Below, in pieces: positions 625-17,041 of a DNA stretch of 64,000 nt. Within the stretch, counting starts at the first letter, position 1; each line of letters begins with the position of its first letter. The translations under genes and the position numbers were made by a program. The notes beneath the pieces are model-generated. The model was not told the DNA's origin, made no database searches, and saw nothing but the letters and a program-made list of their open reading frames with translations. The DNA comes from Methanothrix harundinacea 6Ac (GTDB lineage Archaea > Halobacteriota > Methanosarcinia > Methanotrichales > Methanotrichaceae), in NCBI RefSeq assembly GCF_000235565.1, contig NC_017527.1, positions 744,001-808,000 of the forward strand. The letters are read 5' to 3'.

Positions 625-3600
625 CGGGACCCCTCCCCCGCCATCCAGGCGGCGATGGCGCAGGGCTCCACCTCGAAGGGGCACCCCCAGCACCCTCCCG
701 TCGACCCCTCCACCTCGGCAGCCCGCCGAAACTCTCTCCCCTGGAAGATCCCGTCCAGGGCCTCTCGGAGCTCCCCGTCCACCTCGGCGAAGGTGGGGTC
801 TGGCTTCGACCTCTGCCGGACCATCCTTCCCTCCCCGGCATGGACCTCCAGGACCCGGGAGATCCCCGGCCTCCGGACGATCCGGAATAGGGCCCTCATC
901 GATCCGGGCCGGGCTGGGACCTCGGGGAGGCCGAGGGCGAGGAGGGCGAGGGAGTAGAGCTGGAGCTGCTCCCACTCGGCGCCGGAGGTGGAGGACTTGT
1001 AGTCGGAGAGGACGACTTCGATCTCGCCCTTCTTCCCGGGGGCGCCGAGGTCGATCCGGTCGATCCTCCCCCGGAAGGTGAGGTCCCCGTAACTCTCGGC
1101 GGAGCGGGGGAGGAGCTCTCCCATCCTCGATAGCTCGAGGCTGAAGGGGACCTCCGCCATCCGGCGTCGGCCGACGGCGGCCCTGACCGGATCCTCCGCC
1201 TCGAATCTGAGATAGCCGAGGAGGTCGGAGGCGACGGCGCTGACGATCCTCCGGCGGACCGCCTCCATCCTCCTGACCTTCTCGTCGGCGAGGAACCTCG
1301 CTGCCGTCCTCTCCACCTCCCCGCGGACCAGGTCCTCTCCTCCCCCCTCCCGAAGGTCGGCGCCGGGAGGGGCCTCCCCCCCGACGGCCCTGAGGACGGC
1401 GTGGTAGGCGGTCCCCCTCTCCAGGGGGGTGAGCTCGAGGCTTCCGGGGGCCGGCTCCTCGATCCCCAGGGCGCGGGTGAGGAAGAACCGGAAGGGACAG
1501 CTCCGATAGTCCCGGAGCTTCGAGTAGCTGAAGCTCCTCACCACCAGGGTCGAGGAGACCCCGGGGTCCTCGATCCTCCACTGGAAGGGGGGCTCCCCGG
1601 CCCGGAGGCGGAGGGGATCGACCTCTCCAAGGAGATCCGCCGGGACCTCCAGGCGGCCGCCCCCCGCGATGGCTCGGGCGTACTCCACCCTCAGGTGGCG
1701 CCGGCTCAGGATCGTCGGCGATTTCGATGGCTCCTCCTCCGCCTCGGCGGCGGGAGAAACCCCTGCCATCCTCTCCAGCCAGAGGGAGGGGACGAGGGGC
1801 GCCCCCTCCCGGGAGGCCCTCGGATAGGTGACGACGGTCCGGGAGGAGGAGGCGATCGCCTTCCGGAGCCAGTACCGCTCGATCCGGTCGTTTCTCAGGT
1901 GGAGGTTTCTCTCTCCCCTCCCGGAGGAGAGGTCGTTCAGCCCGTAGAGGGGGTTTGCCGATCGGCTGGGGAAGAGGCCGTCGTTGAACCCCGCCACGAA
2001 CTTCACCCGTCGGTACCTTTTCGAGGAGAGGGCGGGGGAGAGGATCTCGACGGCCCCGGATCGGGCGGATCCGGCCCAGGCCGGGACCCCGAGGGCCGCC
2101 ACCAGGATGGAGAGGAGCCGGTCGAGGGGGAGGTCGGCCCGGCCGAGGGCCTCCAGGGTCAGGGCGGTCCTCGTCACCGCCTCCTCAAACCCATCGAGGG
2201 CAGGCACATCTCCATCGGAGTCGGAGAGCCTCGGCCGGAGAAGCTCGATCAGCCGCCCCAGCTCGGAGGCGACCGCAGCGAGGCCGGAGCCGTCGATCGC
2301 CGCCTCCATCGACGCGAGGCGGTCGAAGAGCTCCTCGGATCGGCTCATGACGAGGGCGCAAGACTCGGCCCGCCGGGCCGCCGCCGCCACCTCGCTTTCC
2401 AGAACCGTCTCGTCGGCGGCGAGGACCCGCTCCATCTCCCGGAGGGCGGACTGGTGCTCCGCCAGGGCGGCGATCCAGCTCCGGCGGGCCGAGGCGAGGT
2501 CGCCCGCCGGCAGGAGGAGGAGGCCGGCGGCGGAGGCGAGGGCCTCCAGCTCCCGGGGTGAGGTGGGGAGGGAGCCGTCGAGGAGGGTGAGGATCAGCTC
2601 GGGGGGGTATCCCGAGGCCGCCGCCCTGAAGGGGAGGAGGAGAACCTGTACCGTCTTCTTCTCCAGGAGGCTCTCCCCGGCGAGGAGCCTCGCCGGAACT
2701 CCGGCGTCCTGAAGGGCCCGGAGGATCTCGCGCCCCCGGGTGGCGGGGTCGGCGACGACGATCGATATATCCTCGGGGCGGAGCCCCTCGGAGATCAGCC
2801 TCTTCGCCTCCCGGCATAGGGCGAAGGTCTCCGCCTCCGGGTCGGGGTGGCTTTCGACGGAGACGAGGCCCCGGAGGTCGGAGGCCGGGTGGGGCGGTCC
2901 ATCCAGGAGGAAGGAGTCGAGGCCCTTCGATAGGGGCTCGTCCCGGGGGCGGCATTCGATCTCCTCGAACCCCCCTTCGGCCAGAAGGGCGAGGAACTCC
3001 TCCAGCCCTCCCCGGCTCCAGAGGGCGGGGTCGAGGGTGATCGTCGCCTCCTCGAAGAGGGGCAGAAGGCGAAGGAGAAACCCCATCTCCGCCCCCGGAA
3101 GGTCGGCTATGCCGTCGGCGAAGAGGCGGGTCCCGTACCTATTCCGGAGTTCCTCCATAGCGCCGGCCGGATCGAATCCGCGGTAGGCGTCGGCCAGGTC
3201 GAAGACCCCCCGTCCCCGGACCCGTTCGACCCCCCTCCGGACCGCCCTCGCGAGATTTAGCGCCTCCTCGGAGGCGAGGAGGTCGGCGATCTCGGCCTCG
3301 CCCCGGATGGCGAGGTCCCAGGCCGCCTCGGCGGCGGAGCGGGCGAAGGTGGCCGAAGATCGGAGGGGGGAGAAGACCCCCAGCTCATCGGCGGGGAGGT
3401 CGGAGAAGGCGTCGGCGGCGAGGAGGTTCACCACGCTCCTGCTGAGGAGCACCTCGCCGGGGTGGGCGAGCCGGTGGAGGTCTTCGGCTACCTTCGAGAG
3501 GGTGACGAAGTTTCCGGCGGGGACGGGCCCCTTCAGCGCCCGGGCGAACCTCTCGGCGAAGCTCTCCGCCTCCTCCGGGGTTGGGGCGATGAAGGTGTAG

Positions 3601-3695
3601 GAGGTGGGGTCCTCCCGGTGGGCCTCCGCCATCGCCGCCATCAGCCTCTCCGTCTTCCCCGAGAGGGCGGGGCCCCGCAGGATCTGCCTCCTCAA
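621..3695 (-). CDS. addB: AddB-like helicase-nuclease subunit with Fe-S nuclease domain
   Basis: This 1024-residue protein starts with a Walker A-like loop (GPALSGKTERL, residues 8-18) and ends with a RecB-family nuclease domain. The nuclease core is visible as LSDYKSS near residue 900, matching the D-x-K part of the PD-(D/E)xK fold. One cysteine before the nuclease (YRSCPFRFF) and three at the C terminus (CWGCPFEVEPC) match the split four-cysteine iron-sulfur staple of bacterial AddB. The family resects double-strand DNA ends together with AddA for recombination. The start is a TTG preceded by a strong GGAGGAGG-type site; no better ATG lies nearby. It faces away from the next gene across a short divergent gap. 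Low sequence similarity is usual for AddB, so the call rests on the cysteine pattern, the length and the coupled addA. Confidence 0.85.
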   Translation of the reverse strand: MRRQILRGPALSGKTERLMAAMAEAHREDPTSYTFIAPTPEEAESFAERFARALKGPVPAGNFVTLSKVAEDLHRLAHPGEVLLSRSVVNLLAADAFSDLPADELGVFSPLRSSATFARSAAEAAWDLAIRGEAEIADLLASEEALNLARAVRRGVERVRGRGVFDLADAYRGFDPAGAMEELRNRYGTRLFADGIADLPGAEMGFLLRLLPLFEEATITLDPALWSRGGLEEFLALLAEGGFEEIECRPRDEPLSKGLDSFLLDGPPHPASDLRGLVSVESHPDPEAETFALCREAKRLISEGLRPEDISIVVADPATRGREILRALQDAGVPARLLAGESLLEKKTVQVLLLPFRAAASGYPPELILTLLDGSLPTSPRELEALASAAGLLLLPAGDLASARRSWIAALAEHQSALREMERVLAADETVLESEVAAAARRAESCALVMSRSEELFDRLASMEAAIDGSGLAAVASELGRLIELLRPRLSDSDGDVPALDGFEEAVTRTALTLEALGRADLPLDRLLSILVAALGVPAWAGSARSGAVEILSPALSSKRYRRVKFVAGFNDGLFPSRSANPLYGLNDLSSGRGERNLHLRNDRIERYWLRKAIASSSRTVVTYPRASREGAPLVPSLWLERMAGVSPAAEAEEEPSKSPTILSRRHLRVEYARAIAGGGRLEVPADLLGEVDPLRLRAGEPPFQWRIEDPGVSSTLVVRSFSYSKLRDYRSCPFRFFLTRALGIEEPAPGSLELTPLERGTAYHAVLRAVGGEAPPGADLREGGGEDLVRGEVERTAARFLADEKVRRMEAVRRRIVSAVASDLLGYLRFEAEDPVRAAVGRRRMAEVPFSLELSRMGELLPRSAESYGDLTFRGRIDRIDLGAPGKKGEIEVVLSDYKSSTSGAEWEQLQLYSLALLALGLPEVPARPGSMRALFRIVRRPGISRVLEVHAGEGRMVRQRSKPDPTFAEVDGELREALDGIFQGREFRRAAEVEGSTGGCWGCPFEVEPCAIAAWMAGEGSR

Positions 3696-3835
3696 CTCTC
3701 TCCTCCTCCTTCTCCTCTTCCTCCGGGAGATCTGCCGCCGTCGTATATCCCGTTTGCTGAATCTCGCCCGAAGGGCGGAGATGACCAGACCGGTGGAGGA
3801 AGGGCTTATGACCCCGGGGCTCGATGGGGTCGGCT

Positions 3836-4462
3836 ATGGCGAGCCCTGAGGATAAGGCGAGGGCGGCGGCGAAGATCCGCCCCCGGTCCCTGGAGGAGGC
3901 GAGGGGAGCGGTGGAGGCGCGAGGCCTCCTCTTCTTGAGGCGGCTCGACCGGCTCGAGGCGGGCCTCGCGAGGGTCGGGACGGGCCGGGAGGCCGAGAGG
4001 TTCGGCAGGGCGACGGCGATGTTCCTCCTCGACTCGCTGCCGCTGAGGCCGGAGGCCTGCCCCTTCTGCGTCCAAAACGCGGGCGCGAACCGCTGCGGGT
4101 CTTGCGGCTACGCCGAGACCCACGGCGGGGAGTGCGACGCCGAGACCAGCGCCTTCGGCCAGCTGATCGAGGCGGTCGTCGACCTAGCCGGAGAGATCCA
4201 CGAGATCCGTGATAATCCCTCCACCGGAGCCGTCGATCCCGAGGAAGCTAAAAAGGAGCTGGAGGCTTCCATCGCCCGGTCGAGGGAGGCGGCGGAGCGG
4301 CTCCTGGCCGAGATCGCCGGGGCCGACGTCTCCGGGCTGATGGAGGCGAAGAGGGCCTACATCGGGGCTATCCTGGAGGCCCTCCCCGCAGGGATCATCG
4401 GATCGCCCCAGGTCGATCGGGCCATCGAAGCCGTCCGGGCGAAGCTGGTGCGGTACTGGTAA
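3836..4462 (+). CDS. Protein of unknown function with CPFC...CGSC...C cysteine cluster
   Basis: About 208 residues. I do not recognise the family. Seen: a helical N-terminal region with the motif LDRLEAGLARVG, a cysteine cluster near the middle (CPFC, then CGSC eight residues on, then another Cys) that looks like a metal or zinc-ribbon site, and a long charged, probably coiled-coil C-terminal half. ATG 3836 is preferred for a compact N terminus; ATG 3824 in frame is an alternative. The last 186 bases recur without indels at 9391-9576, where the rest of the gene is decayed. A 31-codon membrane microprotein gene with its own promoter follows in both places, so the two genes were copied as one unit. 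A role in sensing or binding linked to the microprotein is only a guess. Confidence 0.75.
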   Translation: MASPEDKARAAAKIRPRSLEEARGAVEARGLLFLRRLDRLEAGLARVGTGREAERFGRATAMFLLDSLPLRPEACPFCVQNAGANRCGSCGYAETHGGECDAETSAFGQLIEAVVDLAGEIHEIRDNPSTGAVDPEEAKKELEASIARSREAAERLLAEIAGADVSGLMEAKRAYIGAILEALPAGIIGSPQVDRAIEAVRAKLVRYW

Positions 4463-4479
4463 TAGGCGATCCCCAAAAA

Positions 4480-4489
4480 GATATAAATC
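4480..4489 (+). promoter_or_regulatory. TATA box of microprotein gene, copy 1
   Basis: GATATAAATC lies about 35 bases before the microprotein ATG, within the spacer after the upstream stop codon. The same element, preceded by AAAA, is kept in the second copy at 9590-9599. This gives the small gene its own archaeal promoter rather than simple read-through. Confidence 0.65.
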
Positions 4490-4522
4490 AAACCTCAGTC
4501 AAGATAGAGAGAGGGTGTTTTC

Positions 4523-4618
4523 ATGGACATAAAAGAGACCTTGCGCCGGTATCCCTGCATCGTAATCTTCAGCCTCTTTCTGCTGATCATGCTGATAGTG
4601 GTAATATACACCAAGTGA
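4523..4618 (+). CDS. 31-residue single-span membrane microprotein, copy 1
   Basis: The protein has a charged N terminus (MDIKETLRRYP) followed by one hydrophobic helix of about 18 residues and the ending YTK. GGTG lies five bases before the ATG, and a TATA box lies about 35 bases upstream. It is too short for normal gene calling. Evidence that it is real comes from the second copy at 9632-9727: same length, same frame and only four residue changes, all conservative or hydrophobic (K/R, V/A, I/F, K/R). The helix is therefore kept while the bases drift. The positively charged N terminus suggests the N terminus stays in the cytoplasm. No known family recognised; possible roles include membrane-complex modulator or small stress peptide. 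Confidence 0.75.
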   Translation: MDIKETLRRYPCIVIFSLFLLIMLIVVIYTK

Positions 4619-5107
4619 CAGGATGGGCATCCTTTTCTCCTATCTCTTTCATAGCGTCTTCATCGGAGTGCCCGCGTCTGCGGTCATGCCAAAGGTCGAT
4701 CCGGGGGTCCGAATAAAACCCGGCGGATGCAGCCCCGACGACCTCTCGATGATGATATACAGGACACTCGTGGAGACGGCGGAGGACAGAAGCGTTTTTT
4801 ATTGTCCTTCGCCTCCATCGATCAGATAATCCGGTTTCTGCCGTCAGGAGATCGAGGAAAAAGATAGATCGAATCAGACCTGATGGCCTCAAGGATTGAG
4901 TCAAGACGGGGATGTCTCGGCCAATTCTGCCTGGATCAGAGGCGATGCAGCAGACAATGATAATTCCAGTCTCTCCCGTTCCTCCAAAGACGACGGCCCG
5001 GCCTTTGCAGAGAGAGCTCATCCTAAGGAAAAAGGGAGCTTGCGCCATCGGCGCAGCCCGTTTGCTTATTCTGTTGTATGCTCTCTCTCTGCGTGTGATT
5101 TCATACG
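4619..5107. other. Intergenic region, no supported gene
   Basis: About 490 bases between the convergent microprotein gene and the C25 protease gene. Open frames exist on both strands but lack a ribosome-binding site, a domain or any sensible composition. No repeat or strong hairpin was seen. Confidence 0.5.
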
Positions 5108-8100
5108 TTATGCTTTACGAAGGAAGTAGCTGGATCCGCTTGCATTGTGTCTCTCTCCCTTCTTGTAGCATGGACCGGTGGTCGATCCGCTGGGACGATG
5201 GAGCACCTGACACTTATCGCACCAGCGCCATGGAATCGGATCGTCCGTTATAGAGGGGTCCATTCCAATGGCGTACTTTAAGTGTTCCCCAATGTGCTCA
5301 TTTCCGTCACGACACTTCCCTGCCTTTTCCTTGTCTCCAGCAAAGAATAGGCTGCGGCACTTCGTGCACCTGCGCCATCCCTGTTGACCGGGAGCATCCG
5401 GGGAATCATAGACCAAGACATAACGTTCTCCACTCGCCTCTTCATGGGGGCCATCATCCACAGGACAATGGTTATAACGGGGGTTAGTATTGCTGAATAG
5501 CCCATGGCACTTGGTGCATCGTCGCCAGCTTTGCTGGAGCTTGATTACAGGCACTTTTGCGACATAAGGCACGAAGTTCCCCTTTCCGGTCCCGAATTCG
5601 GAAGACACGACCGTTAAGGTGATCTCTGTCAAATCTTGAGGGATGGATGGTTTAAAAGATGCCATGCCCTGGCCATCTGTCAGTCTGGACTCCAGGACCA
5701 CGGGCTCCTGCGAAGAATTGGTCCACCCACCCATCAGAGTCACTCTCTGCAGAGCCATGGGCGAGTCTTTATTCAATACGCAGACCTCAAAGGGTCCGTC
5801 ATACGGTAGCTCCAGATAGTCCGGGCGGACGACCTGATATTTTTTTGGCACCTTCGTCCAGACGCGCATCTCCGGATCTCCGTACAGTATCCGCTCGTAG
5901 ACCGACCATAAATCTCGATCTGGCCAGCTCTGGTCTCCTGCCGCAGGTCCCAATCGTCCATTGCGATATAGGCTCCTCCAGAAGGCTTTATGCCGGGCAT
6001 CATTTCCAAAGCCCATGCGAGTATTGCCGATATAGGCCACTGCACCACCACCTGGATGCAGGACCAGCTTCTCTCCCAGAGATTGATTTCTGTTCTCGGG
6101 CGTATGGACATCATTGATATAAGCGTCCGGCTCGGCTGTGTGACATGAGCTATAAGCTACCGCGATGAAGTATTCATTGTGATTCTTAAAATCATCGCGG
6201 GCCCCGTGCCCTTCATCGCACCAGACCATAGCGCACCTGCTTGGGTTACCGTGACTCTGCAGGATGGCTAGATGACACCCCCTGTCGAGAGCTGCACGGA
6301 TGTTCTCCACCTTCAGTGGCTGAGCGGGCGGCAAGCTCGCAGTCCCCCAAACCTCCTTATAGTCCGAGTAGTATCGCTGGTAGTCGTCGAATTCTCCGAA
6401 AAGTCCCGAGAGGCAATTGCGCATGCCCTCTGCCTGCCTGGTCCAGGTATCACCACGGGGATAGCCATAGAACCAAATTATTCTCTTGGGAGCAACTTTG
6501 AGGGCCGATCCCGTCAGCTTTACATATTCGGTGGGAGTGCTGGAGGAACCCCAATAGTACTTTCGCCCCATACCAACCCTCCGCTCTACGAAACGCCAGC
6601 TCAAGAATCCTGTAATTGGGACCGATGACCCATCGTCATAGATGCAGCTGATATCTGTCCCGAACTCTCTATCGGCCTCGAAGAATCTCGCAACTACGTG
6701 GAAATTGGATTCTTTCCACAAATCTCTCAGCACTTGAAACAGTTTTTCTTGGAGGTGGATCAGAACAAAGTCATCCTGCACCGAATAGATGAATTTTCCG
6801 CTATCTGGTGTTTCCCTAATCCGGTCTGGGTCCTGCCAGAGATTGTTCGTAGTATCCTCTTCGAGGTCTACTGCCATAATCACCCGCTTCAGGTAGGTGG
6901 GATCGACGACTTCAGGGACTTCGTTATCTCCAACTGGTGTCTGAAGACGTTCATACGTCAAGACTCTATCGACAAAGGAGCGAGCGTCTTCACCTGTCCT
7001 TACGGGAGCGCGCCCCACCCAGATGTCGGGGATGCTGGGATCGGAGCTGTCGACAGGAGTCTCTTCGCCGTGTTCGCCGGTTTCATCGTCCACCCAACGG
7101 TACTGGCCATAATAGCCATTATCGAATAGATCGAAGTCGTGTTTATCGGACGGCTCCGAGTCCATACAGGCGTAGTAGAGATCAGAGGGAATCAGCCTAT
7201 CCTTCTCAAGTATCCAATAAAAATCATCGTTTATGTCTGACTCAGGTCCCTCAACTATGAGGTTACATACCGGTGTGTCCTTGGGTGTCTCAGAGTAACC
7301 CTTTTCGGAATTATATGGTTCAGGCTCCCCCTTTAAATCCTGATTGTTGTCCTCGTATAGCGGACGATAATCCCTCTTTGTGAAGTACCACCCAAGTTCA
7401 CCATTGCCGATCTCCCTTCTATTTTCCTTGAATTTTATCACTTTTCCCCGGGAGCTGCATAGCTTCGTCAGGGAGTTAACGGTGAAAAATCTGCACTCGT
7501 GACAGAGGCGAGCTTTTTTGGGATTTCCAACCAAGACGCGTCCTCTTGGTGGTGGATTTGTTCTTGAAGCTTCTATGTCCTCCCCATAATCACAAAAATC
7601 CCAGCCAGGATATTTTCCTTTGCAGGTTGCATAACCGAGCAATTTTCTCATGGGGACTATTTCGAGGGAGCCTCCGAGCAGCAGATATTCAAGGCCCCAG
7701 TTATTATGAGCCCATTTGATGAAGTTGCGGATAACCTCCTGAAGATCCCGAGCAGGATTTGCAGAGTTGGCATGTGCAAAATCTCCATAATCTCCTGCGA
7801 GGATGGACTCAACGGTCACAACTCGTGTGCGCATGCCGCGTGATGTCTTCCATTCCGCCAGCCGCTCGAAGTGCTCTACTGGCCCGGGTCCATTAACATT
7901 TAAAGCCTTCTTTCGAGGGTCATTTTTTTCGGGGGCACCGTTCCCGTCTGTGCCCTTCTCAGGCCATGTAGAATTATCGGTGATGATGACATAGGGTATG
8001 CTTGGAAGATCGACCACTTCCTTAACGCCAGACCCAACATCTTTGGCCATGAAGACGTGATCCCTATCCAGAACAGACTGGATCCGCTGCAATCTGCGCT

Positions 8101-8983
8101 GTCTGAACGTGCGATCAGCCGCAAGTGCCTTCTCAGCAGGTCGGGCCTCCTGTAAATCATAGTGAACAGTGTAGCGCAGGTTCGGGTGGAATATGAAGTT
8201 GCGCTTGACGGGATCGAACTGGACGGGCCGGACGAGCATCCTGAGGATCTGAACAGACTCTTTCTGTCTGATCGATAACCGGACGACCATATCTGCTGGG
8301 TACGGCTTCGTCTGCTTCAGATAGCTGGGATAGACCTGCATGAGGGAAACACTCCCGGGGAAGATGGGTTCTGGGTCTATCCGGTCTCCCCAGTCCTGCT
8401 TTGGTGCCCTGACCGGTAGTGGATTAACCTCCGCCGGCAGACGTATCGATCTGCCCGGCTGAACCTCCACCTTGAGGACCTTTGCTCCAAGAGGCAGGAC
8501 GATGTATTGGATCTTCTCTGGCAGCGAAGGCGCTCCTATCAGCCCTCCGTTATCCCATCCAGGCAGGCGCGGGATGTCGAGCATATCCACCTTCTCCATC
8601 TTCAGATCGCTCTGTAAGAGATTTACCCCCGCCTCGACAATGCCGTCAGGGCCGGAGGGAGAGAGCTGGCCGAGCTTTTCGCGAGGTATCTCTAGCTCGA
8701 TATGCTCTTCATCTTTCGCACCCCACTGCATCTTCTCTTTGGTATCCATCAGGAAACGAAAAGGTGGCGTGAAGATGCGGAGGAATATCTCAGGACGGGC
8801 CTCAAACAGGTCTGGAGCTGCGTCTTTCTGATAAACCATTTTAAAACTACCATCGGAATCAGTTATAGTCGTTTTAAGGGACTTGTCATATCTTCTGCCT
8901 CTATCATAGGATCGGACAATTAATCCACTGATGCCGAGATGGCTTTCAAGCTCGCGTATGCGTCCAGATATAGTATATTGCAT
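5108..8983 (-). CDS. Gingipain-like (peptidase C25) cysteine protease with C-terminal CxxC repeats
   Basis: This 1291-residue protein opens with a beta-rich region like a carboxypeptidase-regulatory/transthyretin domain (residues 1-60) and no signal peptide. A C25 propeptide-like region follows. The caspase-like core carries IPYVIITDN near 330, LLLGGSLEIVP, and PDIWVGRAPVRT. The catalytic pair is His911 in QSHGNP and Cys947 in YSSCHTA. A Cys insertion (CHEC...C) sits within the core. The C terminus from about residue 1150 has three units of the form W-R-x-C-x-K-C-x-x-L followed by a third Cys and a His, probably metal-binding. The start ATG follows GGAG at seven bases, with an ATATATAT-rich promoter upstream. 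Base composition is clearly more AT-rich than the flanking genes, which suggests transfer. The second C25 protein in the window (32685-34838) is differently built. Confidence 0.8.
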   Translation of the reverse strand: MQYTISGRIRELESHLGISGLIVRSYDRGRRYDKSLKTTITDSDGSFKMVYQKDAAPDLFEARPEIFLRIFTPPFRFLMDTKEKMQWGAKDEEHIELEIPREKLGQLSPSGPDGIVEAGVNLLQSDLKMEKVDMLDIPRLPGWDNGGLIGAPSLPEKIQYIVLPLGAKVLKVEVQPGRSIRLPAEVNPLPVRAPKQDWGDRIDPEPIFPGSVSLMQVYPSYLKQTKPYPADMVVRLSIRQKESVQILRMLVRPVQFDPVKRNFIFHPNLRYTVHYDLQEARPAEKALAADRTFRQRRLQRIQSVLDRDHVFMAKDVGSGVKEVVDLPSIPYVIITDNSTWPEKGTDGNGAPEKNDPRKKALNVNGPGPVEHFERLAEWKTSRGMRTRVVTVESILAGDYGDFAHANSANPARDLQEVIRNFIKWAHNNWGLEYLLLGGSLEIVPMRKLLGYATCKGKYPGWDFCDYGEDIEASRTNPPPRGRVLVGNPKKARLCHECRFFTVNSLTKLCSSRGKVIKFKENRREIGNGELGWYFTKRDYRPLYEDNNQDLKGEPEPYNSEKGYSETPKDTPVCNLIVEGPESDINDDFYWILEKDRLIPSDLYYACMDSEPSDKHDFDLFDNGYYGQYRWVDDETGEHGEETPVDSSDPSIPDIWVGRAPVRTGEDARSFVDRVLTYERLQTPVGDNEVPEVVDPTYLKRVIMAVDLEEDTTNNLWQDPDRIRETPDSGKFIYSVQDDFVLIHLQEKLFQVLRDLWKESNFHVVARFFEADREFGTDISCIYDDGSSVPITGFLSWRFVERRVGMGRKYYWGSSSTPTEYVKLTGSALKVAPKRIIWFYGYPRGDTWTRQAEGMRNCLSGLFGEFDDYQRYYSDYKEVWGTASLPPAQPLKVENIRAALDRGCHLAILQSHGNPSRCAMVWCDEGHGARDDFKNHNEYFIAVAYSSCHTAEPDAYINDVHTPENRNQSLGEKLVLHPGGGAVAYIGNTRMGFGNDARHKAFWRSLYRNGRLGPAAGDQSWPDRDLWSVYERILYGDPEMRVWTKVPKKYQVVRPDYLELPYDGPFEVCVLNKDSPMALQRVTLMGGWTNSSQEPVVLESRLTDGQGMASFKPSIPQDLTEITLTVVSSEFGTGKGNFVPYVAKVPVIKLQQSWRRCTKCHGLFSNTNPRYNHCPVDDGPHEEASGERYVLVYDSPDAPGQQGWRRCTKCRSLFFAGDKEKAGKCRDGNEHIGEHLKYAIGMDPSITDDPIPWRWCDKCQVLHRPSGSTTGPCYKKGERHNASGSSYFLRKA

Positions 8984-9348
8984 ATATACACTCCAGCCAA
9001 TTTTTTACTTTAGTTATAGTTCATGATATATATCTATTTCTGTCAAAGTGGAAAACTAGTACAAGAAAATATATTATTATGTATATGTAATATCATCGAT
9101 CGAATCAACGAACTTTATAGTTGGAATTTATAGCAGAAATTTATATTGTATATGGATTAATAGTACTTCTTTACTGACGAAGTGCTGCTACATAATGATC
9201 TGATCTCGTTTAATCAATTCATCCCTTAATAAAATATTCCGTATTATCTGTATAATATCTTTCAACAAAAATTTATCATCCCCCTCCTGAAGCTATCGAT
9301 TATTCCTGGTGATTTGAGGCTTTTAAGGATGCCTGAACTCTATCAAAC
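8984..9348. other. AT-rich intergenic region with the C25 promoter
   Basis: This is the most AT-rich stretch of the left half. On the minus strand, AGATATATATC around 9027-9040 is a good TATA box for the C25 gene. The rest holds no open frame I can support. The AT bias fits DNA acquired together with the C25 gene. Confidence 0.5.
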
Positions 9349-9576
9349 AGCTGGACCCGCTCGAAGCAGGTCTGGAGGAAAATAATCGGCCGGTCGAGGG
9401 AGGCGGCGGAGCGGCTCCTGGCCGAGATCGGCGGGGCCGACGTCTCCGGTCTGATGGAGGCGAAGAGGGCCTACATCGGGGCGATCCTGGAGGCCCTCCC
9501 CGCAGGGATCATCGGATCTCGAAAGGTCGACCGGCGGATCGAAATGGTCGCATTGAGGCTGGAGGGGTACTGGTGA
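9349..9576 (+). pseudogene. Decayed partial copy of the 3836-4462 cysteine-cluster gene
   Basis: Bases 9391-9576 match 4277-4462 over exactly 186 positions with no indel, including the C-terminal coding stretch and a stop codon (TGA here, TAA there). Just before it, 9351-9371 encodes LDPLEAG, matching LDRLEAG of the intact gene's N-terminal third. The middle, including all the cysteine motifs, is deleted. The upstream fragment is also in a different frame from the 3' fragment. No start codon and frame combination restores the full protein. It is a remnant of a second copy that stayed next to an intact second microprotein gene. Confidence 0.8.
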
Positions 9577-9589
9577 AGGCCCCCGAAAA

Positions 9590-9599
9590 GATATAAATC
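9590..9599 (+). promoter_or_regulatory. TATA box of microprotein gene, copy 2
   Basis: GATATAAATC is identical to the element at 4480-4489 and stands at a comparable distance before the second microprotein ATG. It is preserved although the upstream gene copy has decayed, which supports its role as the microprotein promoter. Confidence 0.65.
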
Positions 9600-9631
9600 G
9601 GGAAAAGGCGGAATATATAGAAGGTGTTTTC

Positions 9632-9727
9632 ATGGACATAAGAGAGACCTTGCGCCGGTATCCCTGCATCGCCATCTTCAGCCTCTTTCTGCTGATCATG
9701 CTGATCGTGGTATTCTACACCAGGTGA
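9632..9727 (+). CDS. 31-residue single-span membrane microprotein, copy 2
   Basis: Paralogue of the microprotein at 4523-4618, starting MDIRETLRRYP and ending YTR, with the same length and one predicted transmembrane helix. GGTGTTTTC immediately precedes the ATG, as in copy 1, and the TATA box is conserved. Unlike the neighbouring gene copy, this reading frame has no indel or stop and its basic residues are kept as K/R exchanges. That points to continued selection on the peptide and not on the cysteine-cluster gene. Function unknown. Confidence 0.75.
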   Translation: MDIRETLRRYPCIAIFSLFLLIMLIVVFYTR

Positions 9728-9861
9728 GGGGACGGGGGCTCTTCCCCCTACCTCTGAAACCACCTTCGTACCCTTTTTCAGCCATCGTTCGATCCTCCAA
9801 TTTGATGATCTCTACCGCATCCGACCCCCCAGATCTCCGGGCCTCAAGCCCCCCTCAGGAT

Positions 9862-9871
9862 GATATTTAAG
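9862..9871 (+). promoter_or_regulatory. TATA box for the 9894 gene
   Basis: GATATTTAAG lies about 25-30 bases before the ATG at 9894. That spacing predicts a transcript with almost no leader. Confidence 0.55.
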
Positions 9872-9893
9872 CCTTGAAGTCCTATTGATCCTC

Positions 9894-10358
9894 ATGGAAT
9901 GCAGCGAGCCCTGCCGGGAGTTCTGTCGGTGGATAGAGACCCTCCCCCACCACAGGAAGTACGTCCTCAGGAAGGAGGAGTACCCGGCCCTTCCCAACTG
10001 CTTCAAGGAGACGCTCCTAGGGGAGGCGGTGCCGGGGTCGGTCCGGCAGCTCCGGGGGCCGGCGGGGTCCCACGTCCACGAGTTCCCGGATCGGTGGGTC
10101 CTCCACCGGGACATCGCCGACGCCGAGGCCGACCCCCTGGGCCACCTCCTCAGCGACGCCCCCGAGTACCTCGTCTCGGCGATCGCGGGGCTAGCCACCG
10201 CCCTCCTCGCCAAACAGAAGAGGGACGGGAGGAACGCCCTCCTCGCCGGATGGTCGATGACCGCCTTCCTCCTCCTCCTGGGGAAGATGGGAAAGACGAT
10301 CGGCGAGGACGACTCCGAGAAGGAGGCCCAGGCGCCCCGCCTCAAGTCAGGGTTTTGA
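9894..10358 (+). CDS. Uncharacterised protein with C-terminal membrane segments
   Basis: About 154 residues; family not recognised. The N-terminal part is soluble and begins with a short cysteine pattern (MECSEPCREFCRW), followed by a His/Asp-rich stretch. The C-terminal third has two hydrophobic stretches (YLVSAIAGLATALLA and a second around SMTAFLLLL) separated by a basic loop, so it is probably membrane-attached. ATG 9894 is preferred over TTG 9885 because the TATA box at 9862 fits a leaderless start there. It stands alone in front of marC. Confidence 0.65.
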   Translation: MECSEPCREFCRWIETLPHHRKYVLRKEEYPALPNCFKETLLGEAVPGSVRQLRGPAGSHVHEFPDRWVLHRDIADAEADPLGHLLSDAPEYLVSAIAGLATALLAKQKRDGRNALLAGWSMTAFLLLLGKMGKTIGEDDSEKEAQAPRLKSGF

Positions 10359-10448
10359 GGCGGCGGAGGAGCGGGTCCGGATCTTGAGCTCTCCCCCCCC
10401 TGAGGGGGGCATTTTCGATGGTTTAAAGGTTTAGGGGTGGATTCGACG

Positions 10449-11099
10449 ATGGTGGAGGTGGCAGGCCATTTCGCTTACTTCTTCTACGCTCTCGCCTCGG
10501 TCTTCATCATAGTAAACCCCGTAGAGGCGACGATGGTCTTCATCTCCCTCACCCCGGAGGCCTCCGCCGGGGAGAGGGCGAGGATCTCTTTGCGGGCGGC
10601 AGCGGTCGCCTACGTCATCGCCCTCCTCTTCGCCCTCTCGGGGGACCACGTCCTCCGCTTCTTCGGGGCGACCGTCGACTCCCTCCGGGTCGCCGGAGGG
10701 ATCCTCCTCTTCATCATGGCCATCGAGATGCTGAAGGCGAAGCCCCGGAGGAAGGTGACGGAGGCGGAGCTGGCCGACGCCAGCGACCGGGAGGACGTCT
10801 CGGTCTTCCCCCTGGCGACCCCCCTCCTGACCGGCCCCGGGGCGATCACCACCGTCATCGTCCTGATGGGGACGGCTTCAGGCCCCGCCGAGAAGGGGGC
10901 GGTCCTCCTGGCCATCACCGCCACCTTCGCCGCCACCTACCTCATCCTCCGGTCCTCGGAGTACGTCGACCGGATCCTGGGGCTGACGGGGATCATGGTG
11001 ATGACGAGGATCATGGGCCTCCTCCTGGGGGCGATCGCCGTCAACTTCGTCGCCTTCGGAGCCTGGAACATCTACGCCGGGATGGCGGGGCTCTCCTGA
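10449..11099 (+). CDS. marC: MarC family integral membrane protein
   Basis: About 216 residues with six predicted membrane helices and typical MarC/UPF0056 features. These are an early FIIVNPVEA segment (the family has N-P in the first helix), a polar central loop, then PLATPLLTGPGAITTVIVL, which is the family's second N-P/P-G-type repeat. The name MarC comes from a locus once linked to multiple antibiotic resistance; no transport substrate has been firmly established. A TATA-like TTTAAAG at 10422 lies about 26 bases before ATG 10449, favouring that leaderless start over the GTG at 10437. It converges with the glcF-like gene. Confidence 0.85.
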   Translation: MVEVAGHFAYFFYALASVFIIVNPVEATMVFISLTPEASAGERARISLRAAAVAYVIALLFALSGDHVLRFFGATVDSLRVAGGILLFIMAIEMLKAKPRRKVTEAELADASDREDVSVFPLATPLLTGPGAITTVIVLMGTASGPAEKGAVLLAITATFAATYLILRSSEYVDRILGLTGIMVMTRIMGLLLGAIAVNFVAFGAWNIYAGMAGLS

Positions 11100-13900: not shown

Positions 13901-16900
13901 GTGGCCGTTCCGGAGAAGATCCTTGAGTTGGTTGAAAAATTCGAATTGGTCATTGATAAATATAAATCTAGTTATAAAGAAGAAGAAATTAAAATTGAAT
14001 TTATAAATCCTTTTTTTGAAGCTCTAGGCTGGGATGTCCGAAATAAGAGCAATAACCCCCCAGATCAGAGAGAGGTCAGGTTTGAAGATACCTTGAGGTC
14101 AGAGGGGGAGACCCAGAGGCCCGATTATAGCTTCTGGCTTGACAGGGAGAGGAAGTTCTTTCTGGACGCCAAAAAACCTTCAGTGAATATTGAAGGAGGA
14201 ATAATCCCAGCATTCCAGATAAAGCGTTATGCATACTCTTCTACCCTGCCGCTTGCCATTGTAACCGACTTTGAAGAGTTTGCCGTTTACGATTGCAGGA
14301 TCAAACCGTTCAAATTTGATAAGCCACAAAAGTCTAGATTATTATTAATAAAATATTATGAATATGAAAAGAGATGGGACGAGATCGCCTCGTTGTTCTC
14401 CAAAGAGGCCGTTCAGAGAGGCTCCCTCGGCTCCATCCCTCCGCCAAAAGGAAAAAAAGTCGACGACGCTCTTCTGGAGGACATCTCTGATTGGCGAAAT
14501 GCTCTGGCGGCGAGCATCACTAAGATGAATCCAGAGATCTCTCAGAAGAGCCTGAACTATGCGGTCCAGATGACGATCGACAGGATTCTATTTCTAAGGA
14601 TCTGTGAGGATCGGTCTATTGAGGACAGCGAGCGGTTGAAGGGGCTTCTTGATGGGGATGATGTATATAAGAGGCTGTTTGAACTCTTCGAAGAGGCCGA
14701 TAAGAGGTACAATTCGGGGCTGTTCCACTTCCATCCTGAGGAGGAGAGGAACAACTTCGACGCCATCACCCCGTCGATAAAGATCGAGGACAATGTTCTT
14801 AAGAATATAATTCAAAGCTTATACTATCCTGACAGCCCCTACGTCTTCTCTGAGATCCCTGCCGATATTCTTGGTCACGTTTACGAGCAGTTCCTGGGGA
14901 AGGTCATCCAGCTGGACGAGAGCCACAAAGTGAGCGTGGTGGAGAAGCCTGAGGTGAGGAAGGCAGGAGGCGTTTATTATACTCCATCATATATTGTAGA
15001 TTATATCGTTAAAAACACCGTCGGCAAGCTCTTGGAGGGGAAGACCCCCAAGGAGGCCTCTGACCTTCGCATCCTCGATCCCGCCTGCGGTTCGGGGTCG
15101 TTTCTGATAGTGGCCTATCAGCACCTCTTGGATTGGCACCTCGACTGGTACAAGGCCCATCTCGTCCCTCTCTTGGATGCTGGAGAGAAGCCGACATCAA
15201 ACGGGGTGCAAAATCTCCTCCCGTCTCCGATCGAGAGGCCAGGGAAGAACGCCAGGTCCCGATCGAAGAAGATCTGGGAGAGGGCTTCGGTGGCGACCCT
15301 CCCCATCGAGGAGAGGGCGGGAGAATGGCATCTGAAGACCGCCGAGAGGAAGAGGATCCTCCTCAACAACATCTATGGCGTGGATATAGACACTCAGGCC
15401 GTGGAGGTGACAAAGCTCTCCCTCCTCCTCAAGGTCTTGGAAGGAGAAAATAAGGCCACCATCACCGATCTCAACATGTATTCAGATGAGAGGGCTCTGC
15501 CAGATCTTGGAAATAATATAAAATGTGGCAATTCCCTAATCGGTTGGGATATCCTTGAAGATAAGCCCGATCTCTCCCAGGAAGAGCTGGAGAGGATCAA
15601 TCCATTTATATGGGAGGATGAATTTAAAGAGGTCTTCGCCAAAGGCGGTTTTGATGCGGTAATTGGAAATCCGCCTTATATTAGAATTCAAATGATGAAG
15701 GAATGGGCTCCTGTAGAGGTGGAATTTTACAAAGAGCATTACACGGTCGCCAAGAAAGGGAACTATGACGTTTATGTCGTATTCGTCGAAAAGGGATTGG
15801 CCCTCCTGAACGAAAGCGGTCGTTTAGGTTTTATCCTACCAAATAAATTTTTTAATGCACAATATGGTTCACCGTTGCGTAGTTTATTATCAAATGGAAA
15901 AAATTTAGACGAAATTGTTAATTTTGGGCATGGACAAATATTCTGTGGCGTAACTACCTATACATGTCTGATCTTTCTGAATAAAATGCCAAAAGATTCA
16001 TTCAAATATACATATGTCGAAGACTTGAATTCATGGAAAGAGGACGCATTATCAATAACGGGTGAAATTCAAGCTAAGAATGCAGCATGTGCTGAATGGA
16101 ATTTTATTGTTGGAAAAGGTTCAGATCTTTTTGATCGTTTGAGTAAGATGCCTGTGAAGTTGGGAGATGTGGCTGAAAGGGTGTTTCAAGGGATCATTCC
16201 TGGAATGGATGCAGTTTATTCGATAAAATTGATCGGGGAAGATGATATTGTAATATGTTATTCGCGGGCTTTATCTAAAGATATTCAGATAGAAAGTAAA
16301 ATTCTTCGTAAAATCGCCAGCGGTTCTCAGGTGAAGGCTTATACAATTGTAGATGATAAATCAAGAGTTATCTATCCTTATCACTTTGAGGGAGATAATT
16401 GTGTTTTAATTCTGCCAGATAAGATGAAACAGGATTTTCCTTTGGCTTATGATTATCTTCAAAAAACCAGAGATCTATTGGACAAAAGAGATCGTGGCTC
16501 GGCTAAAGGAGCCCAATGGTATCGTTATATTAGAACCCAAAATATTGGATTACAAGCATATCCTAAGTTGGCCATCCCTCGCCTCGTCCATCGCTTGTGT
16601 GCAGCCTATGACGCAAATGCAGATTTTTGTTTGGATAACGTGGATGTGGGTGGAGTGATTCTCTCTGAAAATAGCCCTGTTGGTTATATTTATATACTTG
16701 GCTTATTAAATAGCAAGCTACTCAACTATTATTTTAAAATTAATAGTGTTCATTTTCGAGGTGGTTTTTTCTCTGCTAATAGGCAATATATTGAACGTCT
16801 CCCCATTCGCACCATCGACTTCTCCGACCCCCAGGACGTCACCCGCCACGACAAGATGGTGAGCCTCGTGGAGACGATGCTCGACCTGCACAAACAACTC

Positions 16901-17041
16901 CAGGAAGTCGGCACGCCACATGAAAAAACGCGCATCCAAAATCAGATCGGTTATACGGACAAGCAGATAGATGCCTTGGTCTACGAACTGTACGACCTCA
17001 CAGAGGAGGAGATCGCCATCGTGGAAGAGAGCACAAAATAG
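13901..17041 (+). CDS. Single-chain type II (IIG/Eco57I-like) restriction-modification enzyme
   Basis: 1046 residues. The N-terminal nuclease domain contains RPDYSFWL followed by FFLDAKK (D89-A90-K91), the D...D-x-K pattern of the PD-(D/E)xK fold. A helical connector comes next. The gamma-type N6-adenine methylase has motif I DPACGSGSF at residue 393 and motif IV NPPY at residue 590. The last 350 residues resemble a target-recognition region, ending in a coiled-coil-like segment. One protein thus carries cleavage, methylation and DNA recognition. The start is GTG with GGAGG 16 bases away, a weak choice. The gene is much more AT-rich than both neighbours and stands alone between unrelated operons, typical of horizontally acquired defence genes. 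No separate specificity subunit or partner is present. Confidence 0.88.
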   Translation: MAVPEKILELVEKFELVIDKYKSSYKEEEIKIEFINPFFEALGWDVRNKSNNPPDQREVRFEDTLRSEGETQRPDYSFWLDRERKFFLDAKKPSVNIEGGIIPAFQIKRYAYSSTLPLAIVTDFEEFAVYDCRIKPFKFDKPQKSRLLLIKYYEYEKRWDEIASLFSKEAVQRGSLGSIPPPKGKKVDDALLEDISDWRNALAASITKMNPEISQKSLNYAVQMTIDRILFLRICEDRSIEDSERLKGLLDGDDVYKRLFELFEEADKRYNSGLFHFHPEEERNNFDAITPSIKIEDNVLKNIIQSLYYPDSPYVFSEIPADILGHVYEQFLGKVIQLDESHKVSVVEKPEVRKAGGVYYTPSYIVDYIVKNTVGKLLEGKTPKEASDLRILDPACGSGSFLIVAYQHLLDWHLDWYKAHLVPLLDAGEKPTSNGVQNLLPSPIERPGKNARSRSKKIWERASVATLPIEERAGEWHLKTAERKRILLNNIYGVDIDTQAVEVTKLSLLLKVLEGENKATITDLNMYSDERALPDLGNNIKCGNSLIGWDILEDKPDLSQEELERINPFIWEDEFKEVFAKGGFDAVIGNPPYIRIQMMKEWAPVEVEFYKEHYTVAKKGNYDVYVVFVEKGLALLNESGRLGFILPNKFFNAQYGSPLRSLLSNGKNLDEIVNFGHGQIFCGVTTYTCLIFLNKMPKDSFKYTYVEDLNSWKEDALSITGEIQAKNAACAEWNFIVGKGSDLFDRLSKMPVKLGDVAERVFQGIIPGMDAVYSIKLIGEDDIVICYSRALSKDIQIESKILRKIASGSQVKAYTIVDDKSRVIYPYHFEGDNCVLILPDKMKQDFPLAYDYLQKTRDLLDKRDRGSAKGAQWYRYIRTQNIGLQAYPKLAIPRLVHRLCAAYDANADFCLDNVDVGGVILSENSPVGYIYILGLLNSKLLNYYFKINSVHFRGGFFSANRQYIERLPIRTIDFSDPQDVTRHDKMVSLVETMLDLHKQLQEVGTPHEKTRIQNQIGYTDKQIDALVYELYDLTEEEIAIVEESTK

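Follow-up and report, generated by a model that had tools for sequence, protein, structure and literature searches.

A C25-family peptidase gene between two copies of a gene tail and microprotein unit in Methanothrix harundinacea, probably acquired by recombination

Campbell-type single-crossover integration leaves flanking repeats of reciprocal ancestry and restores the reading frame of the target gene on one side. Both signs are found at the locus of Methanothrix harundinacea 6Ac described here, which differs from that system in that neither a circular donor or plasmid nor a recombinase was seen. Gene conversion between duplicated archaeal genes has been described for the mtrA copies of methanogens (PMC4632066) and offers a parallel in same-genome copies that keep exchanging sequence, with the difference that in our case one copy is a pseudogene tail and the other gene is intact. 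Very short protein-coding genes are also on record for a methanogen, Methanosarcina mazei (PMC11456600, PMC13370731 and PMC10714827), and they resemble the microprotein genes of this locus in size, the latter being confined to one genus and having no known partner in the material compared. The remaining point of comparison is peptidase family C25 (the gingipain family, clan CD), which the predicted protein encoded between the repeats resembles in its profile match and in an aligned His/Cys pair. It departs from that family in that a signal peptide is not evident, the catalytic region is interrupted by long insertions, and the C-terminus bears Cys-rich WRxCxKC repeats that also occur in a few bacterial proteins.

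The stretch of DNA analysed (the window) is 64,000 nucleotides long and lies in the 2,559,043-base contig of a genome (G000) of 2,571,034 bases in two contigs, described as a chromosome plus an 11,991-base plasmid in Methanosaeta (Methanothrix) harundinacea 6Ac (PMC3349665). Its features are listed in Table 1, and G001 to G008 denote congeners. A preliminary description of the window had reported two 186-base segments that align without an indel; the repeat proved to be slightly longer (190 nt, 88% identical, again with no indel) and is accompanied by another of 124 nt (4504-4627 and 9613-9736; 90%), so that a unit of gene tail, promoter and 31-codon gene recurs at a spacing of about 5.1 kb. 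Each spacer contains the TATA-like ATATAAAT together with GGTGTTTTCATG and leads into a 31-codon frame, in line with that description, as does the low-GC protease gene between the copies, which runs on the opposite strand (GC 0.519 and GC3 0.565, against 0.67-0.71 and about 0.9 in the neighbours). The upstream gene of copy 2 had been said to lack its cysteines and its frame, and we indeed found all cysteines gone and a decayed front fused out of frame to the tail; the microprotein frame is intact in both copies. A whole-genome search recovered two copies of the unit, both at this locus, which rules out the scattered, dispersed repeat considered earlier as the refuting case. No Rfam family matched within 3500-10500. 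Beside the same gene cluster lies a type IIG restriction-modification gene of 45% GC (window 13901-17041), with relatives near the site in G006 (93% identical) and in G007 (55% identical).

Table 1. Features of the repeat and peptidase locus (positions in the window).
Feature	Coordinates	Strand	Remarks
zn, intact cysteine-cluster protein gene, 208 aa	3836..4462	+	start 3836, 3824 also possible
Tail copy 1, zn 3' end	4271..4460	+	repeat search
Copy 1 spacer, TATA-like box and GGTG motif	4463..4522	+	letters in common with G001/G002
Microprotein 1, 31 aa, one hydrophobic span	4523..4618	+	
Acquired block (probable), left flank	4619..5107	.	unmatched elsewhere in own genome and in fetched congener loci
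Putative C25-family (gingipain-like) cysteine peptidase, 1291 aa, C-terminal Cys-rich repeats	5108..8983	-	Pfam PF01364
AT-rich stretch upstream of C25 gene	8984..9326	.	
Decayed remnant, front part of second zn gene	9327..9383	+	57-base comparison with congeners
Tail copy 2 of zn, pseudogene without cysteines	9385..9574	+	repeat search
Copy 2 spacer with TATA-like box, G006-like	9577..9631	+	88% to G006
Microprotein 2, 31 aa	9632..9727	+	
g9897, conserved downstream gene marking the site	9897..10358	+	shared gene order in relatives

We surveyed zn and the microprotein in 61 genomes, that of M. harundinacea included, and compared the corresponding loci of the congeners. The gene order common to the genus is zn, the microprotein where present, g9897 (a gene with no family in Pfam or NCBIfam) and MarC, usually preceded by a RexB-like nuclease gene, which was not found beside zn in G002 and G008. 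In G001 and G002 the microprotein is followed by g9897 with no insert, and the promoter region of g9897 aligns across the junction. A site without the C25 block had been proposed as the observation that would favour insertion, and these two relatives support the view that the block is an insertion at a conserved site; since relatives have no protease gene at this position, the gene was probably acquired by recombination there. The sister of our genome in the local tree, G006, has one unit, separated from g9897 by about 1.8 kb in which a DUF4198 gene and a second gene lie. In G003, G004, G007 and G008, zn and g9897 are 100-135 bases apart, and the interval lacks both the microprotein and an intact TATA-like box; we infer a single loss of the microprotein in this group, tentatively, because support for the root of the genus is weak. 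G005, whose contig stops inside zn, was excluded from the site comparison.

Three further observations were made in these loci. The second gene in the G006 gap encodes 134 residues, and it and the DUF4198 gene have a GC content of 55-57% (L043, 6444-7721). The zn gene of G007 carries an in-frame deletion just 3' of the cysteine cluster (HGG to GQL; L047, 7482-8054). In G003, zn seems to be divided between two positions about 356 kb from each other (L048 near 7763 and L049 near 7828), an apparent rearrangement that we discarded as an assembly or scaffolding artefact because both halves end in runs of N.

The similarity between the two copies is not uniform along their length. Mismatches between copies 1 and 2 amount to 8/141 (5.7%) in the tail, 34/103 (33%) across the end of the tail and the spacer, and 7/96 (7.3%) in the microprotein, as compared with 26/141 (18%), 15/103 (15%) and 12/96 (13%) between copy 2 and G006 in the same three segments; the segments were delimited by eye with the alignment in view, which makes their Fisher and chi-square values descriptive. 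Two stretches with 94% and 93% identity thus enclose about 100 bases with 67%, and the change falls within the coding tail itself (94% over 4274-4414, 66% over 4415-4462). In these middle bases copy 2 is 85% identical to the sister species, which copy 1 does not resemble: the zn front of copy 1 is 82% identical to G006 and its end and spacer together about 68%, its spacer has letters in common with G001 and G002, and its middle has no close match in any sampled species. A breakpoint scan with shuffled sites, which chose its own breakpoints, delimited a tract at 4407-4533 with p of about 0.0005 (the floor of 2000 shuffles), a value that is approximate because sites inside codons are not independent; the scan gave the same outcome on the coding tail alone. 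The 57-base front remnant of copy 2 matches G008 at 40/57 positions, G001 and G005 at 36/57, the zn gene of its own genome at 32/57 and G006 at 31/57, and since it is short and decayed this affinity (40 versus 32 matches) is weak and suggestive. Mosaic and remnant together are suggestive of a crossover between zn alleles of different ancestry. The mosaic, for which the sites are limited in number and partly dependent on one another, points to recombination within the zn 3' end, either with an imported segment bearing the C25 gene or through an older duplication and gene conversion.

In the reading that we prefer, and to which we give about an even chance, the conserved site (zn, microprotein, g9897, MarC) received the C25 segment by homologous recombination in the zn 3' end. 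The incoming DNA would have consisted of its own zn 3' end, a spacer, a microprotein, the C25 gene and its own zn front, and one crossover within the shared 140-base tail would have joined the native front to the incoming end on the left, and the incoming front to the native end on the right. The right-hand zn front would then have decayed, and later gene conversion would have evened out the tail and the body of the microprotein. Because such a crossover restores the 3' end of zn, the intact gene would still be readable. This reading fits the site without the C25 gene in G001 and G002, the changing ancestry of two copies that are the sole ones in the genome, the better fit of the front remnant to G008, G001 and G005 than to G000 or G006, and the low GC of a gene with no close relative in the phylum among the genomes searched. 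Against it, a donor genome with the order zn, microprotein and C25 was not found in the genomes searched, the middle of copy 1 is not close to any sampled species, the body of the microprotein calls for an extra conversion step, and the affinity of the 57 decayed bases is weak.

The same pattern could also be given by an older tandem duplication of zn tail and microprotein that pre-dated the split from G006, with the C25 gene inserted between the copies and the block later deleted in G006. We regard this course of events as possible, if rather less probable. It yields the same mosaic, it would make the G006 arrangement the product of recombination between the two tails, and it suits the G001/G002-like spacer of copy 1. 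Its cost is that it requires a duplication, an insertion, conversion and an exact loss of the block in G006, and the front remnant of copy 2 resembles other congeners more than it does G000 or G006, though decay could explain this. Tentatively, copy 2 would on this account have drifted to the derived type, with conversion evening parts of the two copies in the same genome. Conversion is in fact needed for the near-identical tail and microprotein body both with an older duplication and with an imported segment, and the imported segment is preferred because it accounts at once for the affinity of the remnant and for the foreign composition. A simple recent tandem duplication, later split by the C25 gene, would agree with the high identity of the tails and of the microproteins, yet it is at odds with the middle 100 bases, where the copies are 67% identical to each other and copy 2 is 85% identical to G006; we consider it highly improbable. 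The earlier suggestion of an insertion into a tandem duplication is upheld as regards the insertion of the C25 gene, whereas the mosaic disfavours its simple recent form.

The predicted product of the inserted gene matches the C25 profile (Pfam PF01364) with an E value of 9.3e-38 and 130.9 bits against a cut-off of 23, and its putative catalytic residues, His911 and Cys947, align with those of two congener C25 proteins that are about 30% identical to it; it most likely cleaves proteins. The congener C25 proteins have signal-like N-termini and CARDB, unlike the protein encoded here, whose N-terminus looks signal-less by eye. Searches of other genomes of the phylum gave no match to it at E<=1e-20, phages and viral contigs likewise yielded none, and its matches on plasmids and genome contigs were limited to the C-terminal Cys-rich repeats. 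These repeats (window 5108-5560) recur in proteins of Solibacteraceae and Cellulomonas and in those of a Paraburkholderia and a Spirosoma plasmid. When open reading frames of the block were compared with Pfam, C25 alone gave a match and six others gave none; no transposase or integrase was recognised among them, the block ends hold no inverted repeat pair of at least 18 nt, and block sequences were found in the genome at this locus alone. A mobile module with a recombinase of its own, the other origin that had been envisaged, thus finds no counterpart among the block frames scanned. Neither C25 nor zn nor g9897 matched a defence system in PADLOC.

The microprotein occurs in four of the nine congeners and in 4/61 genomes, all of the same genus, starting 55-61 nt past the zn stop codon in all four, and the TATA-like promoter box is intact only where it is present. 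Across five microprotein sequences 23/31 residues are kept, and dN/dS between species is 0.04-0.37 with a synonymous excess (p<0.02) in 8/9 pairs, which are not independent and from which a comparison of the two near-identical copies in M. harundinacea was left out. These between-species values indicate a real gene, and by this measure of its sequence the microprotein is conserved under purifying selection; the zn tail was weakly constrained in a dN/dS comparison that included copy 2. With one hydrophobic stretch and a promoter-like box, the microprotein is predicted to be a single-span membrane protein encoded by a separate small gene, and our best guess is that it serves as an accessory component of a membrane complex. 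It has no family in Pfam or NCBIfam, and matches to its profile outside the genus among 393 phylum genomes covered it only in part (E 0.0005-0.008), several were interrupted by stops, and we took them as chance.

The preliminary description had also raised the idea of a microprotein-sensor pair, and the microprotein does adjoin zn in every genome that has it (4/4). Obligate pairing did not hold up, with zn in 34/61 genomes and the microprotein in 4/61, and when the neighbourhood was examined from the side of zn, the gene stood without a microprotein in the short spacer of G003, G004, G007 and G008. A zn profile run against 393 phylum genomes found matches essentially only in the same family, and since zn is family-wide and usually without the microprotein, the adjacency reflects inherited gene order. 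That the two work as a functional pair, a cytosolic metal or redox protein with a membrane partner, would agree with their constant adjacency and with a promoter box intact only alongside the microprotein, but most relatives carry zn without it, gene order accounts for the adjacency and the microprotein has its own promoter-like box, which makes such a pair very unlikely. In zn, cysteines C75, C78, C87 and C90 are invariant and C100 nearly so, and it is from these cysteines that the 'sensor' label was guessed. The AlphaFold2 model is all-helical (mean pLDDT 89) and had no Foldseek match at E<=0.001; its best VIA-align score (Z 7.4, rmsd 3.7 over 127 residues) was set aside, and no function was drawn from such scores because they are usual for helical bundles. 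Outside the window the genome also encodes a distant paralogue of zn, about 220 residues long (G000:C2:1743733-1744248), and several congeners have one as well.

The C25 block, taken together with the DUF4198 gene pair beside the microprotein in G006, could be read as a sign that the zn 3' end and the microprotein form a natural entry point for foreign blocks, which would leave zn intact, and that the microprotein has a conserved, genus-specific membrane role; we regard this as unlikely. The acquisition of the protease is probably a clear yet fairly ordinary event of genome evolution. It offers a readable case of methanogen gene gain through recombination, in which relatives provide the unoccupied sites and no mobile element is visible, and it draws attention to a 31-residue putative membrane protein under purifying selection that escapes standard family libraries, in a genus of importance for methane production.
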